This document shows, one piece after another, positions 5,022 to 57,603 of a stretch of 64,000 bases of DNA (positions are counted from its first letter, which is position 1; the number at the start of each line of letters is the position of its first letter). Under the pieces are notes generated by a model, which worked only from the letters and a program-made list of their open reading frames with translations, ran no database searches and was not told the origin of the DNA. This stretch comes from a virus. The translations under genes and the position numbers were made by a program. The stretch is taken from positions 2,677-66,676 of IMG/VR virus record IMGVR_UViG_3300000101_000008; one strand, written 5' to 3'.

Positions 5022-6776
5022 ATGAGTTGGAAAAAGCATTTTACACCAGTTAAAACTGGTAATAACACAGAAGGAAGCTACAGCCCGTTTACTGCAAGAA
5101 ATGGCGGTGGTGGTCAAGCTGGTCCTGCGCGGTCTAACTATTCATCATATTTGCCAGACGTATACATAGGTAGTCCAAATCGTGTTGAACGTTATGGTCA
5201 ATATAATACAATGGATATGGATAGTGAGGTAAATGCCGCACTTGATATCCTTGCAGAATTTACTACACAACAAAACAAACAAAATAAAACTCCGTTTTTA
5301 GTTGACTTTAAAACTAAAGCAACAAATTCAGAAATTACAATTATATCGCAATACTTACAACAGTGGAGTAAATTACAAAACTTTGAAACACGTATGTTCC
5401 GCTTAATGCGTAACGTGTTTAAGTATGGTGATGCATTTTTTGTAAGAGATCCAGAAACTAAAAAATTGTTTCATGTTGATCCTGCAAAAGTTACAAAAAT
5501 TATTGTAAATGAATCTCAAGGTAAAACACCTGAGCAATATCTAGTAAAAGACTTTAATTTAAACTTTGCTGAAATGGTAGCAACAACACCATATCAAACA
5601 ACTGGTCAAGGATCAGGAGGCACAGGCGATGCAGGTTACTTAACTGGTGGCGTTCGTGGCATGGTTGGTAATTCAAGTACAAGTGCAGGCGGCGGACGTT
5701 TTCAACAAGGCGAAAATGAAATAGCTGTTGATGCAGTGCATATGATACATTTAAGTTTATCAGAAGGATTAGATTTAAATTATCCGTTTGGTAATAGTTT
5801 ATTAGAAACAGTATTCAAAGTATTCAAACAAAAAGAATTGCTCGAAGATGCGATTATTATATATCGTGTGCAAAGAGCTCCAGAAAGAAGAGTATTCTAC
5901 GTTGATGTGGGCAACATGCCATCACACCTTGCTATGCAATTTGTGGAACGTGTTAAGACGGAAATTCATCAAAGACGAATCCCATCGCAAACGGGGGGTG
6001 GCCAAAACGTTATAGACTCAGCTTACAATCCCCTATCAATTAACGAAGACTACTTCTTCCCACAAACTGCTGAAGGTAGAGGATCTAAAGTTGAAACGTT
6101 ACCAGGCGGTACTAACCTCGGAGAGATAGATGACCTTAGATATTTTACTAATAAGCTCGTACGTGGCTTACGAATCCCTAGTTCATACTTACCGACCGGG
6201 CCTGATGATGGAAATTCTCAATACACTGACGGACGAGTTGGAACAGCATACATACAAGAACTAAGATTTAATACATACTGTGAACGTTTACAGAATTTAG
6301 TAGTTGAAGAATTCAACCAAGAATTTAAACGTTATGTTTTAGAAAAAGGTATAAACATTGATACAGCAATGTTTGATCTTAAATTTCAACCTCCACAAAA
6401 CTTTGCAAGTTATAGACAAAGTGAGATTGATAATGCAAGAGTACCTACGTATTCACAAATGAGTGCAATACCTTATATTTCAAATAGATTTGCAATGACA
6501 CGTTTCTTAGGAATGAGCGACGAAGAGATTGCAGAAAACGAAAGACTATGGCGTGAAGAAAATGATGAAAATCTAGAAGCGTCAAATACCGATGCCGCAG
6601 GAGAAATGCGTGGTGCAGGGATAAGCGGCGCAGGTATAAGTTCAGACTTAGGGAACATTGAAGACGATGCAACAGAAGAACCAGATCCAACAATAGGTGG
6701 AGATGAAATGGCTGGAGCAACCCCTGAAGCAGGAGCAGAACAATCCGCACCTCCGGCAACGGATCAAACGATATAA
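5022..6776 (+). CDS. 20: Portal vertex protein gp20
   Basis: 584 residues, close to the 524 of T4 gp20 with a longer acidic tail. Diagnostic stretches include EVNAALDILAEFTTQ near residue 70, FRLMRNVFKYGDAFFVRDP at about 127-146, RVQRAPERRVFYVDVGN at about 282-298 and GLRIPSSYLPTGPDDG. gp20 forms the dodecameric ring through which DNA is packaged and to which the neck attaches; it also nucleates prohead assembly. The C-terminal 60 residues are Gly/Ala/Glu-rich and low complexity. The start has TAGGA 7 nt upstream. Gene order (portal, small core genes, protease, scaffold, capsid) is that of the T4 head cluster. Its stop overlaps the late promoter at 6772-6779. Confidence 0.95.
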   Translation: MSWKKHFTPVKTGNNTEGSYSPFTARNGGGGQAGPARSNYSSYLPDVYIGSPNRVERYGQYNTMDMDSEVNAALDILAEFTTQQNKQNKTPFLVDFKTKATNSEITIISQYLQQWSKLQNFETRMFRLMRNVFKYGDAFFVRDPETKKLFHVDPAKVTKIIVNESQGKTPEQYLVKDFNLNFAEMVATTPYQTTGQGSGGTGDAGYLTGGVRGMVGNSSTSAGGGRFQQGENEIAVDAVHMIHLSLSEGLDLNYPFGNSLLETVFKVFKQKELLEDAIIIYRVQRAPERRVFYVDVGNMPSHLAMQFVERVKTEIHQRRIPSQTGGGQNVIDSAYNPLSINEDYFFPQTAEGRGSKVETLPGGTNLGEIDDLRYFTNKLVRGLRIPSSYLPTGPDDGNSQYTDGRVGTAYIQELRFNTYCERLQNLVVEEFNQEFKRYVLEKGINIDTAMFDLKFQPPQNFASYRQSEIDNARVPTYSQMSAIPYISNRFAMTRFLGMSDEEIAENERLWREENDENLEASNTDAAGEMRGAGISGAGISSDLGNIEDDATEEPDPTIGGDEMAGATPEAGAEQSAPPATDQTI

Positions 6777-8849: not shown

Positions 8850-9485
8850 ATGAACAACTTTTTAAGAGAGCACTTGACATTCGACCAGGCTAACATAGTC
8901 GTTGAGTCTACCGATAACTCCAAAGGAGGCAAAGACCTTTACATGAAAGGTATTTGTATACAAGGCGGTGTGCGTAACGCAAACCAACGTGTGTATCCTG
9001 TAGAAGAAATTGGTAGGGCTGTCAAAACTCTCAATGATCAAATATCCGGAGGATATAGTGTACTCGGGGAAGTTGATCATCCAGAAGGCCTTAATATTAA
9101 CTTAGACCGTGTAAGTCACATGATAACAGATTGTTGGATGGATGGCCCAAACGGTTATGGCAAGTTAAAAATTTTACCAACTCCTATGGGAAAACTAGTT
9201 GAAACAATGCTGGAAAGCGGCGTTAAATTAGGTGTTTCCAGTAGGGGCTCTGGTAATGTTTCAGAAGACGGAGGCAATCAAGTCTCCGACTTTGAAATTA
9301 TAACAGTTGATGTCGTGGCGCAACCAAGTGCGCCAGGCGCTTACCCAACACCAATCTACGAGCATTTAATGAATGCACGTGGCGGAATGAAGGCATACGA
9401 AATGGCACAGGCAACAAGACAAGACCCAAAGGCACAAAAGTATCTAAAGGAATCGCTAGTGAATATCATTAGCAAACTCCAATAA
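8850..9485 (+). CDS. 21: Prohead core protease gp21
   Basis: 211 residues, the usual length of T4-family gp21 (212 in T4). Serine protease of the herpesvirus assemblin-like fold that matures the prohead by cutting scaffold, core and capsid proteins. The likely catalytic His is H77 in GEVDHPEG, and the Ser is S130 or S131 in GVSSRGSGNV. The N-terminal block KGGKDLYMKGICIQGG and VRNANQRVYP are family signatures. The start has AAGG upstream. Its stop lies 15 bases before gp22, with which it shares a transcript from the promoter at 7809. Confidence 0.93.
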   Translation: MNNFLREHLTFDQANIVVESTDNSKGGKDLYMKGICIQGGVRNANQRVYPVEEIGRAVKTLNDQISGGYSVLGEVDHPEGLNINLDRVSHMITDCWMDGPNGYGKLKILPTPMGKLVETMLESGVKLGVSSRGSGNVSEDGGNQVSDFEIITVDVVAQPSAPGAYPTPIYEHLMNARGGMKAYEMAQATRQDPKAQKYLKESLVNIISKLQ

Positions 9486-10626: not shown

Positions 10627-11799
10627 ATGTCAGAACTACTAGAAAGTCGCTGGCAGGAGACCAAAGGTGCACTAGTTGAAGGATTAACAGGAAATAAGAA
10701 ATCTGTTATGGAAACAACACTTGAGAATACTAGAAAGTATTTGTCAGAGAGTGCAACAGCAGGTGCAACTTCTGCAGGCAACGTAGCAACTCTAAATAGA
10801 GTTATTTTACCAGTTATTAGACGTGTAATGCCAACTGTGATCGCGAACGAGATCGTTGGTGTTCAGCCTATGACAGGACCAGTGGGCCAAATCCACACAT
10901 TACGAGTACGTTACGCTGATGCCTTTACAGGTACAGCAGGCGGATCAGCGGCAGCAGGCGAAGAGGCTTTAAGCCCATTCAAAATTGCTGAAGGCTATTC
11001 AGGTAATGCAAACGGTAAAGCAGATCCAACAGCATCAAAAGAAGGTGTTGCTGGTAACAGACTAAGCATTCAGATTCTAAAACAAACAGTAGAAGCTAAG
11101 ACACGTAAATTGTCAGCTCGCTGGACGTTTGAATCTGCACAAGATGCGCAGTCACAACACGGTATTGATGTTGAAGCAGAAATCATGGCAGCTCTTGCAC
11201 AAGAGATTACAGCTGAGATTGATCAAGAAGTATTAACTTCATTAGCATCATTAGCAGGTACAGGTACTGATACTTACAACCAAGCTGGTGTAAGTGGTAC
11301 TGCAACATTCGTCGGTGACGAACATGCGGCATTAGCTGTATTAATTAATAGAGCGGCAAACAGAATTGCACAAAGAACACGTAGAGGCGCAGGTAACTGG
11401 GCTGTTGTTTCTCCAGCAATTTTAACTGTCCTTCAATCAGCAACAACTTCAGCGTTTGCAAGAACAACTGAAGGTACGTTTGAAGCACCAACTAATACTA
11501 AAATGGTTGGTACATTAAACAATGCTATGAAGATCTATGTTAATACATATGCGGCAGACGATGATGTACTAGTTGGCTACAAAGGCTCAAGTGAATCAGA
11601 TGCGGCAGCATTCTATTGCCCATACATTCCGCTAATGAGCTCAGGTGTTGTACTAGACCCAACTTCATTCGAACCAGTTGTATCATTTATGACTAGATAC
11701 GGATATGTTGAGTTAAACAACACAGCGTCATCTTTAGGTAACGCGGCTGATTACGTTGAAAAAGTTGAAGTGAATAGCAACAACTTATCATTCTCGTAA
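10627..11799 (+). CDS. 23: Major capsid protein gp23
   Basis: 390 residues, shorter than T4 gp23 (521) but in the range of short marine T4-like capsid proteins. Family blocks: LNRVILPVIRRVMPTVIANE, VGVQPMTGPVGQIHTLRVRY and ISPAIL-like AVVSPAILTVLQSA. It forms the HK97-fold hexamers of the head. A likely gp21 cut is after LSE (L39-S40-E41), which would leave a mature protein starting at S42. Strong ribosome site AAGGAGATATGAA. It is the last gene of the head unit, being followed by a strong terminator. No gp24 vertex paralogue is seen in this window. Confidence 0.96.
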   Translation: MSELLESRWQETKGALVEGLTGNKKSVMETTLENTRKYLSESATAGATSAGNVATLNRVILPVIRRVMPTVIANEIVGVQPMTGPVGQIHTLRVRYADAFTGTAGGSAAAGEEALSPFKIAEGYSGNANGKADPTASKEGVAGNRLSIQILKQTVEAKTRKLSARWTFESAQDAQSQHGIDVEAEIMAALAQEITAEIDQEVLTSLASLAGTGTDTYNQAGVSGTATFVGDEHAALAVLINRAANRIAQRTRRGAGNWAVVSPAILTVLQSATTSAFARTTEGTFEAPTNTKMVGTLNNAMKIYVNTYAADDDVLVGYKGSSESDAAAFYCPYIPLMSSGVVLDPTSFEPVVSFMTRYGYVELNNTASSLGNAADYVEKVEVNSNNLSFS

Positions 11800-11824: not shown

Positions 11825-11852
11825 AAAGGGCGGCTTAGGTCGCCCTTTTTTT
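11825..11852 (+). terminator. Rho-independent terminator after gp23
   Basis: AAAGGGCG (11825-11832) pairs with CGCCCTTT (11841-11848) around an 8-base loop and runs into a T-tract. A second hairpin, TATAGTT/AACTATA with a TTT loop (11806-11822), sits just ahead of it. Confidence 0.9.
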
Positions 11853-11857
11853 ATGGC

Positions 11858-11882
11858 TAACCATTTGGTATATGGTTAAATA
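11858..11882 (+). promoter_or_regulatory. Hairpin overlapping a weak late-promoter-like site ahead of the porin gene
   Basis: TAACCAT (11858-11864) and ATGGTTA (11872-11878) form a perfect 7-bp inverted repeat whose right arm runs into GTTAAATAC (11875-11883), a variant of the late octamer. It lies 42 bases before the porin ATG. It may be an operator-like or structural element. Confidence 0.35.
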
Positions 11883-11924
11883 CCGCAGAAGAAACCCCTA
11901 ACTATTTTCGAAAGGAAAATAAAA

Positions 11925-12941
11925 ATGAAACGGACTATAGTTATTCTGTCTGCTCTTTTCGCTTTGATATCATTTCAAGCATTTGCAGACACAAAGACTC
12001 TTGAAGAAAGAGTTACTGATTTAGAAAAGTCAGCACCAACGTTACCAACAGGAATGTTTGTTAACGGAAACATTGAAGTATTTTACGACCCAGATACTTA
12101 CGATTCAGATTTTGATACACGAGCAGAAGTGTTTGTAGGACTACAATCTGAACTAGACGGTCCTATTGATTGGGCAGGAGCAAGTACTAGATTTGATTCT
12201 CAATATTCATTAGACACAACATTAAACAATACTATTGTTGAAAAACAAATTGGTGTTGGTTTAGGAAATACTAGACTTTATGTAGGCGAAACAGATGCAC
12301 AAAGATTAGGATTTGCTAAGACAGCTAAAATTGGTTTACCACTTATTATTACAGAAGCTAATAGTAGAATTGATCATAACGAAAAGATCGTACTTACTTT
12401 TGGCGGATGGAACAACAATAATGAATTTGACTTTGATGAACATAGACTAAAAAGAGATCTACCATTTGGTTTTGCTGTAGGTTATGATGCAGAAGCAAGT
12501 ACAATATACTTAGGTGGTACTGTAAGTTTAGCAGGTTATGCAGAACTATCATACATGCAAATTGGTAATAAAAATAACATCACTAACAATGAATTAAATC
12601 AACAAGGTGTTGCTGTAGGTTCGCAAGTATTGCGTAGATATGGCATTCCGGTAGGATTTGGTGTTGAAGTATGGGACGACAAAAATACAGGATTAGCAAA
12701 AGATGATCGTGTTGACTTTGGTGTTATGTACAACTATTCTAAAGAAGTAATGTTTACAGCACATAAAGTATTAAATGATGACCTTGGAACTGATGGTACA
12801 TATCTTGGTGTAGTACATACAGTAGGACCTGTAGAAACAGGATTCTACTATCATACAGATGTTACTAATACAAGTGTATGGACAGGTGTAACAACTGAAC
12901 GCGATGACAGTATTAAAGCTACTCTTAAGTATAAGTTTTAA
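11925..12941 (+). CDS. Phage-encoded outer-membrane porin-like beta-barrel protein
   Basis: 338 residues. A clear Sec signal peptide (MKRTIVILSALFALISFQAF, cut after A21) is followed by a short coiled-coil segment (LEERVTDLEKS) as in bacterial porins that trimerise. About 290 residues of alternating beta pattern come next, with repeated FGVMYNYSK, AGYAELSYMQIG and VEVWDDKNTG type strands. The last residues, ATLKYKF, have Phe at -1, Tyr at -3 and Leu at -5, the BAM-recognised C-terminal signature of Gram-negative outer-membrane proteins. The product should sit in the host outer membrane rather than the virion. It has its own ribosome site (AAAGGAAAATAAAA) and is insulated by terminators on both sides. 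Possible roles are nutrient uptake during infection, replacement of a host porin, or receptor masking and exclusion. Function is inference; the class is well supported. Confidence 0.8.
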   Translation: MKRTIVILSALFALISFQAFADTKTLEERVTDLEKSAPTLPTGMFVNGNIEVFYDPDTYDSDFDTRAEVFVGLQSELDGPIDWAGASTRFDSQYSLDTTLNNTIVEKQIGVGLGNTRLYVGETDAQRLGFAKTAKIGLPLIITEANSRIDHNEKIVLTFGGWNNNNEFDFDEHRLKRDLPFGFAVGYDAEASTIYLGGTVSLAGYAELSYMQIGNKNNITNNELNQQGVAVGSQVLRRYGIPVGFGVEVWDDKNTGLAKDDRVDFGVMYNYSKEVMFTAHKVLNDDLGTDGTYLGVVHTVGPVETGFYYHTDVTNTSVWTGVTTERDDSIKATLKYKF

Positions 12942-12957
12942 CCTATCACTTTTATTT

Positions 12958-12990
12958 AAAGCTCGATACTTAATTGTGTCGAGCTTTTTT
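12958..12990 (+). terminator. Rho-independent terminator after the porin gene
   Basis: AAAGCTCGA (12958-12966) pairs perfectly with TCGAGCTTT (12979-12987), followed by a T-rich tract. Confidence 0.9.
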
Positions 12991-12997
12991 CTTTTAT

Positions 12998-13005
12998 GAT
13001 AAATA
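12998..13005 (+). promoter_or_regulatory. T4-type late promoter variant for the fibre locus
   Basis: GATAAATAC directly after the porin terminator, 98 bases before the ATG at 13104. It probably starts the long fibre transcription unit. Confidence 0.6.
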
Positions 13006-13020
13006 CATATGTCAAATAGT

Positions 13021-13103: not shown

Positions 13104-13553
13104 ATGGGAAGACCACTTAATAAAAGATTATTCAGCGAACCTACAGCAGGCGGATCTGAAATCAAAGTAAACTTTCATAACGGCACAGCAGTTAAAGAAG
13201 GTTATATTGTAAAGCAAAAAGCTTCAAAGAAATTTGTATGTGAAGAAATTGGCACAGGCGGCGAATTTACTTGTGTACTAACAACTGAAAAATTACCAGC
13301 GGCATTAGCGGAAGGTGAAATGTCAATATCATTCAAAATGGATGATGAAGAAACATACACAGTAAGTAAAATTTCTGGACGTAAAGCAACATTGTCAGCA
13401 CCAAGTGCAACAGGCGCAAACGCCTATGATGGAAAAAGTGTTCCATGGAACTTTGCGGCATCTACAGCAGATGGCGCGGCACAAGTTGAAGAAGCAGGTG
13501 ACGATAATACACTTATCGGAACAGACGACGACGACTTTACAGAAGACGCATAA
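13104..13553 (+). CDS. Conserved virion protein (MGRPLNKR family)
   Basis: 149 residues starting MGRPLNKRLFSE, an N-terminus shared by small virion proteins of marine T4-like phages (recalled). Beta-rich centre (KFVCEEIGTGGEFTCVLTTE), then AEGEMSISFKMDDEETYTV and an acidic tail ending DDDDFTEDA. TAGGAGAAAAAAA ribosome site. The next gene is a shorter, diverged paralogue: both have a KF-V-E--G-G block and an (A/D)NEMSI or EGEMSI block at the same spacing. Probably a tail or fibre-base component; the exact role is not known. Confidence 0.7.
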   Translation: MGRPLNKRLFSEPTAGGSEIKVNFHNGTAVKEGYIVKQKASKKFVCEEIGTGGEFTCVLTTEKLPAALAEGEMSISFKMDDEETYTVSKISGRKATLSAPSATGANAYDGKSVPWNFAASTADGAAQVEEAGDDNTLIGTDDDDFTEDA

Positions 13554-56085: not shown

Positions 56086-57603
56086 TTAGCCGTCTAGTTT
56101 AATTGACCAGTCACCTTTGGCATATTCACCGTCTACACTTAGTAGCCATTGATCGCCGTCCCAGTAGTATTGTACACCTGTATTAAGATTTGTAGTATAT
56201 AAAGTAGTAATTACTTCATCGTTGTATATAAGTTTATCAGCACTTGCATCAAATACTATTTGCCATGCAGTGCCATCCCATTCAATAATATCATTGGAGT
56301 TTGCAACAAAGTCTGTTCCGTTTGCATTTTTCCAAGCATCAGCACCATCTGTATTTGTTGTACTACCGATGCTACCTAATATTAATAGTCTTAGTCCTGC
56401 TACTTTAGCAGTAGTTGGGTCATAACGTAAAGGATCAATAATAAAGTCTATACTTGAATGTTGATTTGCATTACGTGCAGGGCCTTGTACAGTGCTGTTA
56501 CTAGGCAATGTATCTTTATCAAAGTCAATTGTAAGTTTAGTTTCGTCTAATGGATTAACAGTAATACGTCCTGCAAGCATTCCGTTTATATCGGGCTTTC
56601 TAAAGTATGCAATACTTAACCCTGCTCTATAAGATCCTAATAATGCATCAAAATGGTCTCCCCATTTTATATTACTAGGCAATCCGTTTTTAAGAATTTG
56701 TGCTTGTCCATTTAAAATTAATACTCTATGTTGTGTGTAACTTTTTACTACTTCTTTAGCATGTCTAGTTTTTTGTTTTCTTGGATTCATTATACCGTCA
56801 CCGTCACTAGGTGCCGCACCTGTATCAACAACATTAGTAGTGTTATCTAATGTATCTTCTACAACAGTTTCAGTCATTCCGCCCATACTAAACAAATTAG
56901 TACCTTGTAACATTTGTTCAAAATCAACATATCCGTCACCGTCGAAGATACTAGTAACAATATTTGTAATAACGCCTAAACGTTTTACTTTTGCTGGAGG
57001 ACTAATATAAATTGGAGTACTAAATGTCATTGATCCAACATCTATTTCGCTGTCAACACCTGTTGGTATTGAACGACTACTAAAGTTAACACTATCAAGC
57101 ATAATAGTTGTTAAACTAGTCCAGTCTAAATAGTTGTCAGTTGTTTGTATATCTAAACTTGGATTAAAGAGCATTAATATTTGCTCCATAATTTGTAATT
57201 TCATATCTGTGTTTGTTGACCATAGATCAACATTTACAGTTAGCCTATATGGTGTTGGCATTAAACGTTCTACAGTATATTGTTTACCTGCTTGATCAGT
57301 ATAGTCGCCTGCACCATCTTTTGCACGTTCTCTAATATGTCTTTTGTTTACATAACTAGAATCACTAGTACGATCTCTATCTAGTTCTAGTCCTGTAATA
57401 TAAACAGCCATACGTGGCGCACTAGGTATTTTATTTTCTGAATTGTCTCTTAATATTGAGCCTACTTGTCTAGTAAGATCTCCGTACAATACAGGTACTT
57501 GCCTTTCAGTACCATCACCTGTTTGGTAGCTAAAGTTACTGAACAGACGCATCATCTGTACAAGATACTTTCTTATTTGTCCGTCATAAAAATGTTCAGC
57601 CAT
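56086..57603 (-). CDS. 15: Tail sheath stabiliser/terminator gp15
   Basis: 505 residues, almost twice T4 gp15 (272). The N-terminus (FYDGQIRKYLVQMMRLFSNF, RQVPVLYGD) and LTVNVDLWSTNTDMKLQIME plus QILMLFNPSLD align with T4 gp15 (FYNSSFRRY, FSN, VPITY, EQILPYFQP). gp15 forms the hexameric ring closing the tail tube and sheath at the head end. The extra length is C-terminal (from about 230), including a DAWKNANGTDFVANSNDIIE and YYWDGDQWLLSVDGEYAKGD segment resembling small fibre modules. The ATG overlaps the gp14 stop by one base. Confidence 0.85.
   Translation of the reverse strand: MAEHFYDGQIRKYLVQMMRLFSNFSYQTGDGTERQVPVLYGDLTRQVGSILRDNSENKIPSAPRMAVYITGLELDRDRTSDSSYVNKRHIRERAKDGAGDYTDQAGKQYTVERLMPTPYRLTVNVDLWSTNTDMKLQIMEQILMLFNPSLDIQTTDNYLDWTSLTTIMLDSVNFSSRSIPTGVDSEIDVGSMTFSTPIYISPPAKVKRLGVITNIVTSIFDGDGYVDFEQMLQGTNLFSMGGMTETVVEDTLDNTTNVVDTGAAPSDGDGIMNPRKQKTRHAKEVVKSYTQHRVLILNGQAQILKNGLPSNIKWGDHFDALLGSYRAGLSIAYFRKPDINGMLAGRITVNPLDETKLTIDFDKDTLPSNSTVQGPARNANQHSSIDFIIDPLRYDPTTAKVAGLRLLILGSIGSTTNTDGADAWKNANGTDFVANSNDIIEWDGTAWQIVFDASADKLIYNDEVITTLYTTNLNTGVQYYWDGDQWLLSVDGEYAKGDWSIKLDG

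Follow-up and report, generated by a model that had tools for sequence, protein, structure and literature searches.

Why would a T4-like phage carry, directly after its major capsid gene, a gene for a protein that resembles a bacterial outer-membrane porin? We addressed this question in a 64,000-nucleotide stretch of DNA (the window) that comprises bases 2677-66676 of a virus record totalling 101,268 bases. The gene, an intact open reading frame with an ATG start at 11925..12941 on the plus strand, begins 125 nt past gp23 and encodes 338 amino acids. That it is a phage porin belonging to a late unit and sitting in a cargo slot seems to us highly probable. The explanation that we prefer as a whole, to which we assign a probability of about 50%, is that this unit is a moron whose product would raise the solute permeability of the outer membrane late in infection.

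A predicted general porin in a T4-like phage

Several structural genes identify the record as a T4-like phage. The gp23 major capsid gene (10627..11799, plus strand; PF07068, E 6.4e-100; phrog_138, E 1.4e-101) is the left neighbour of the cargo slot, genes for the portal (5022-6776; phrog_213) and the prohead protease (8850-9485; phrog_207) lie upstream of the porin, a baseplate gene (826-1725; PF12322) is found on the strand opposite to it, and a T4-type tail sheath stabiliser (PF16724) is encoded at 56086-57603 on the minus strand. The nearest relatives of both gp23 and the portal are phages with large genomes: gp23 is closest to its counterparts in Vibrio phage 2.275.O (349 kb) and Sinorhizobium phage Phosso (469 kb), at 71% for each, and the portal to those of Phosso (52%) and Agrobacterium phage Atu_ph07 (490 kb; 50%). 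An alphaproteobacterial host is weakly indicated, since the nearest portals come from rhizobial phages and the tmRNA of one relative (L021) also scores as an alphaproteobacterial tmRNA. Four very long open reading frames (1706, 1836, 1831 and 3098 aa) are clustered at 15911-42274, between the capsid and tail genes, and the first of them has no Pfam match.

An earlier note on this DNA had proposed that the gene encodes an outer-membrane porin in a T4-like phage, and the protein features on which it relied are largely borne out. The signal peptide, MKRTIVILSALFALISFQAFAD (residues 1-22), is present and forms a helix at residues 2-18 in the AlphaFold2 model, and the C-terminal phenylalanine, F338, is invariant across the 51 rows of our main alignment (A3), drawn from 72 distinct proteins after omission of members cut by contig ends, near-copies and L088. 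The reading frame of this last protein, which is retained in alignment A2, is off at the end, and the C-terminal Phe is missing. In the L065 group, the signal peptide sits in a longer open reading frame and had been missed by the script-chosen ATG. The β-barrel that had been read from the sequence pattern is also recovered by AlphaFold2, which predicts 16 strands spanning residues 44-337 (from 44-54 to 329-337), with a pTM of 0.69 and a pLDDT of 75.6 that rests on 51 sequences, all from one family; with 17 sequences, a low-quality model had resulted (pLDDT 46.8). The outcome that the earlier note would have taken as a refutation, a prediction lacking a barrel, is thus not what was obtained. 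The claim of a trimer-type coiled coil fared less well: a helix of 11 residues (26-36) is predicted, but its pLDDT is about 57-61 and the sequence is absent from L065, L068, L083 and L085.

The longest gap between strands, 30 residues at 123-152, falls between strands 5 and 6, the position of the constriction loop L3 in general porins. The course of this loop, which in general porins folds inside the barrel, is the low-confidence part of the model, with residues 131-148 at a pLDDT under 50. Structure comparison with Foldseek gave as best match the porin of Rhodopseudomonas blastica (E 1.5e-11, TM 0.68 by target, 12% identity), and VIA-align superposed the model on OmpK36 with a Z of 21.4 and 3.3 Å across 268 residues; a BFVD search returned loose matches only, the best barrel matches having an rmsd of 7-14 Å. 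By its predicted fold, the window protein thus qualifies as a general 16-strand porin. It shares with the R. blastica porin and with OmpF, OmpC and OmpK36 the 16 strands, the long loop that joins strands 5 and 6, the signal peptide and the C-terminal Phe, and differs from them in its low sequence identity (7-15% in the matches listed), in passing the cut-off of no Pfam porin family, in its own near-invariant motif, GETDAQR.GF.KT, and in being encoded by phages.

A putative late unit in a variable slot behind gp23

Judged from the DNA sequence, the porin gene has the layout of a unit of its own, as the earlier note had described it. Directly after gp23 come a predicted intrinsic terminator (11825..11848, plus strand; a 10-pair stem and a T run, -16.8 kcal/mol), the heptamer TAAATAC (11877..11883, plus strand), which we take to be a T4-type late promoter element positioned 48 nt ahead of the start codon, the porin gene itself, and a second intrinsic terminator (12958..12987, plus strand; a 12-pair stem and a T run, -14.2 kcal/mol). 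A further TAAATAC (13000..13006, plus strand) precedes the gene that follows the porin. Both of the flanking terminators that had been claimed are present, although terminator-like sites as such are no commoner than chance in this 7-kb stretch, with four found and 4.0 expected. What makes the terminator behind gp23 credible is its position and conservation, as each of the 12 gp23-porin intergenic stretches compared (the window and 11 related loci) contains a hairpin with a T run behind gp23, the stem sequence differing among them.

The promoter element is equally constant in this setting: the distance from TAAATA to the porin ATG is 46-53 nt in the same 12 stretches and in each of 16 distinct gp23-linked upstream stretches. 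Across the window, 10 of the 15 plus-strand copies of TAAATAC lie in the 120 nt ahead of a plus-strand gene; such zones make up 6.7% of the window when genes are taken from an analyst-chosen set of open reading frames (p 4e-9), and this placement is the best among 105 heptamers of the same letters, none of the others exceeding 4. By count, TAAATAC is not over-represented in the window (17 copies vs 22.2 in shuffles). Taking all contexts together, TAAATAC occurs within 200 nt upstream of the porin in 13 of 72 distinct stretches and TAAATAN in 42, and those among the 72 that are not linked to gp23 show no constant TAAATA spacing.

Comparison with related loci shows that the earlier description of the porin as part of the structural core of the phage does not hold. 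The right neighbour of the porin, a gene for a protein of 149 aa (13104..13553, plus strand), has a counterpart only 172-220 nt past gp23 in five relatives (L224, L238, L242, L244 and L273), in which the slot is empty and the space between gp23 and the next gene holds a hairpin with a T run, seen in the sequence, and one TAAATAC. The leader of the right-hand gene contains a freshwater-2 RNA (RF02980; 13020..13106, plus strand; 67.7 bits, gathering score 49.9), which also attains this score in all empty-slot relatives except L238 (four of five). Beyond the window, the RNA passes the gathering score in six of seven gp23 loci tested. In other relatives the slot is filled otherwise, so that the 3' boundary of gp23 is marked as a variable cargo slot in this T4-like lineage. 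On the sequence, the porin gene is best called a moron, with what appear to be its own promoter and terminator between two late genes and an empty site in relatives.

The other contents of the slot are diverse. One locus carries an NifU_N (IscU-like) protein (L258:3774-4157), another a small CHAP/NlpC-like protein whose N terminus resembles that of a lipoprotein (L229:3636-4130; 27.0 bits, cut-off 26), and a third, L231, a glutamine riboswitch without a porin. Among isolates, the gene after gp23 encodes a hypothetical protein in Vibrio phage 2.275.O and Phosso and a Hef-like homing endonuclease in PA5oct, and no clear counterpart of the genes 3' of the window porin is seen in the parts of these three genomes that we examined. 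In a census of the slot, at least 80 gp23 loci were listed and 54 were left once 26 with less than 1300 nt downstream had been dropped; among the matches listed, the porin occupies the slot in one of the 54, a figure that is no frequency estimate, as of the 26 known gp23-linked porin contigs the listing includes one (L249).

Distribution and relationships of the porin family

Successive searches of IMG/VR viral contigs yielded 25 loci, then 67 loci and finally 160 stretches that encode relatives of the porin, of which 80 loci were kept. In 26 of the 67 loci, gp23 is the next large gene upstream; the other 41 have no gp23 in the stretch at hand, most of them being short fragments, and two of the 41 records carry gp23 elsewhere. 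This distribution bears on the idea that the protein is a structural component of the virion whose likeness to a barrel is due to chance. Its gene does adjoin gp23, but the signal peptide and C-terminal Phe found in the family, the separate unit, the location in a cargo slot and the 41 loci without gp23 at hand all count against such a role, which we regard as very improbable. In a tree of 64 proteins the gp23-linked position requires two changes, with one change in 16% of bootstrap trees, and a single origin of this position is neither shown nor excluded.

Where the porin is not linked to gp23, putative ribonucleotide-reductase-like genes, named by reading, are found nearby. ARAGORN, run on 23 loci, draws a permuted tmRNA in ten: in nine, which are not linked to gp23, its end is separated from the porin by 45-70 nt, and in the other one it is more distant. 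The nine, among them that at L021:4539-4946, encode in most cases the tag ANENFAPEAFTSLDMSMDRELLAA or a similar one.

Beyond viral metagenomes, tblastn found no relatives in 50,697 phage records up to E 0.01, and the search of phages with two distant members gave one match at E 0.6 for one of them and none for the other. A scan of genome contigs, which reaches only relatives that retain its two peptide patterns, gave 135 stretches that fit a pattern and three confirmed porins, all in a single Rhodobacteraceae bin. This bin, Water_Bin34 (L088-L090), contains nine matches to T4-type gp23, and one of its contigs carries both gp23 and the porin; we therefore take the three matches as phage contigs in a mixed bin and reject them as bacterial homologues that might represent a donor. 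No porin relatives were detected up to E 0.01 in 148 other Rhodobacteraceae genomes examined.

We also considered that the gene might be a functionless passenger recently taken from a host. Its GC3 of 0.165 is below that of gp23 (0.256) and gp21 (0.373), as might be expected of such a gene, but three further window genes have values of 0.160-0.170, and the porin is part of a deep family whose known members all come from phage contigs. Moreover, the porin gene is under purifying selection: dN/dS is 0.125-0.183 in five comparisons with relatives at 84-95% DNA identity, a sixth (L001) being uninformative as it shows no synonymous change. A mere passenger is thus hardly to be expected.

At the sequence level the family stands apart. 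The window porin scores above the cut-off of no Pfam or NCBIfam family, its best PHROG match has an E of 0.083, and solved chains give no sequence match, even with a 31-sequence profile. Porin_4 (PF13609) has no match to E 1 in the 17 members of alignment A1, nor to E 10 in seven family proteins, with L018 common to the two sets. OMP_b-brl (PF13505; cut-off 28.7 bits) matches none of the 17 and reaches only a sub-threshold match in the distant member L085 (E 7.9e-5, 23.3 bits) over residues 7-91, which include the signal peptide. PF24653, Phage_OMP (cut-off 27 bits), stays below its cut-off, with matches in two of the 17 members, E 0.51 at best and 7.2 bits in L018. An apparent kinship with ten Rhodobacteraceae porins of the Porin_4 family was rejected: the hhalign probability of 85.8 is due to the signal peptides and falls to 1.6 without them (controls: reversed, 0.8; 30 column-shuffled, at most 0.5). 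The profile search and the comparison with host porins that had been suggested earlier thus place the protein in no family over its cut-off, and show no kinship to these ten porins once signal peptides are removed.

Other phage-encoded barrels offer partial parallels. Pelagibacter phage HTVC008M, itself T4-like, has an annotated outer membrane porin, AGE60376.1, which differs in being a Porin_4 member (E 1e-13) of 285 aa whose gene is located elsewhere, some 2 kb ahead of a baseplate wedge gene; we detected no sequence kinship between it and the window family (hhalign probability 0.3). Cyanophage Phage_OMP proteins are likewise outer-membrane barrels of T4-like phages, but consist of a 122-position domain, present twice in a row in P-SSM2. 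Phage porins of a receptor-altering kind exist in lambdoid phages: Lc of PA-2 is close to the host OmpC and changes receptor display. Compared by description, it resembles the window porin as an accessory phage gene and differs in that its phage is temperate. A viral OmpL porin with the β-barrel kept, found beside glnK-amtB on viral contigs, is described in a further study (PMC8115048); by that description alone, it differs in being part of an ammonium-uptake gene set and in its presumed derivation from Bacteroidetes. With the HTVC008M porin annotated and viral OmpL published (PMC8115048), a porin in a marine T4-like phage is less unusual than the earlier note had held. Porins in phages are known; what appears to be new, judging by sequence comparison, is this family, which is over no Pfam or NCBIfam cut-off and has no significant PHROG match. 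In the published work on phage porins that we consulted, nothing could be linked to it.

Possible functions of the porin

The pattern of conservation gives some indication of what the porin may do. Conservation in A3 peaks in L3, whose mean column entropy over the 51 sequences is 0.55 bit, compared with 1.23 for the strands, 1.52 for the other outer loops and 1.67 for the short inner turns; the lowest-entropy 30-residue stretch outside L3 reaches 0.89 bit. The motif GETDAQR.GF.KT.K is almost invariant in the family. This conservation of L3 fits selection on what crosses the pore. Together with its edges (116-154), L3 has a net charge of 0 to +4, mostly +1 or +2, in all 51 sequences, while the mature porins carry -10 to -31. 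L3 of OmpF is acidic. A slightly basic L3 in an acidic protein hints, on charge counts only, at a pore unlike that of OmpF.

We propose that the unit would be expressed late in infection from its T4-type late promoter and that its product would be exported via the signal peptide. The host barrel-assembly machinery would then fold the porin into the host outer membrane, with the C-terminal Phe as signal, where it could form a 16-strand general-porin channel with constriction loop L3. As a result, once the host no longer makes its own porins in later infection, the outer membrane may become more permeable to small solutes, and nutrient flow to virion production might be maintained. Solute supply is the role that we tentatively favour, because conservation lies in the pore loop and not at the surface and because porins and ammonium transport occur together elsewhere; in a study on dark cyanophage infection, host porin transcripts rise with amt1 (PMC5082946). 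A point against this role is that a late promoter would give protein late, leaving little time for added uptake to pay. Among the part of the window genes that we searched, no nutrient gene adjoins the porin.

The chief rival, which we consider less likely, is that the phage porin displaces or dilutes a host porin used as receptor and so brings about superinfection exclusion or a receptor swap. Lambdoid phage porins provide the precedent, and in the model, L3 apart, the outer loops have just 4-12 residues, which would leave a receptor-binding protein little to hold. Family-wide, several of these outer loops are also the most variable parts of the porin, with an entropy of 2.35-2.37 for two of them, but among near relatives they are under purifying selection (dN/dS 0.035-0.188 in the same five comparisons as above). 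Furthermore, the promoter type suggests expression at a stage that is late for exclusion in a lytic phage, and the most conserved part of the protein is the pore and not the surface.

Ranked third, and improbable in our judgement, is an aid to lysis, in which a late pore would weaken or depolarise the envelope and make lysis quicker or better timed. The late unit would suit such a role, as would a precedent in the marine myophage Melnitz, for whose curli pore CsgGF, found with a glutamine riboswitch, a function in lysis timing has been proposed (PMC9004378). Membrane breakage is, however, not what one expects of a general porin equipped with a constriction loop, and the conservation of L3 would be needless.

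A broader reading, which we regard as a long shot, is that of a phage-only porin family, spread over several lineages and mobile in position, that resets permeability late in infection through an L3 unlike those of host porins and is often yoked to nitrogen sensing. The last element derives from a glutamine riboswitch that follows the porin in 16 of the 50 records examined, which represent 50 of 78 loci and comprise 49 virus records along with one bacterial bin; two kinds of genome context are involved, with 8 of the 16 linked to gp23 and 8 not. The conserved 3' motif of the riboswitch lies 46-504 nt after the porin stop, and two more records have a riboswitch far away. We do not build upon this link, because in L231 a riboswitch occupies the slot with no porin present, and the window has none; the association may reflect mere shared use of the slot. 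Phage-borne porins found otherwise are few scattered cases, and the 160 stretches, with the conserved unit of the gp23-linked group and the conserved pore loop, make the purpose of a porin in lytic phages testable on many natural variants.

The stretch behind the porin varies in further ways among close relatives. At L028:9028-9115 a glutamine riboswitch (RF01739) starts 11 nt past the porin stop, as also seen in L030, L032 and L034, and is followed in these four loci by an open reading frame of 32-33 aa (MDNYTLWCFQQIIKQHHIKK... in L028). Full-length matches to manA-like RNA (RF01745) lie between the porin and the next gene at L028:9220-9422 (45 bits, E 2.3e-10) and L059:9057-9257 (42.1 bits, E 1.3e-9), below the gathering score of 55.2, with a sigma-70-like promoter identified by eye before the RNA. 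Aligning window positions 12941-12958 with L028:9017-9420, the window is without some 400 nt (the glutamine riboswitch, the small open reading frame and the manA-like RNA) between the porin stop and the terminator, and the two share nearly all else around this difference. The same start of the insert as in L028 is present in L001, whose porin DNA is 99.9% identical to that of the window.
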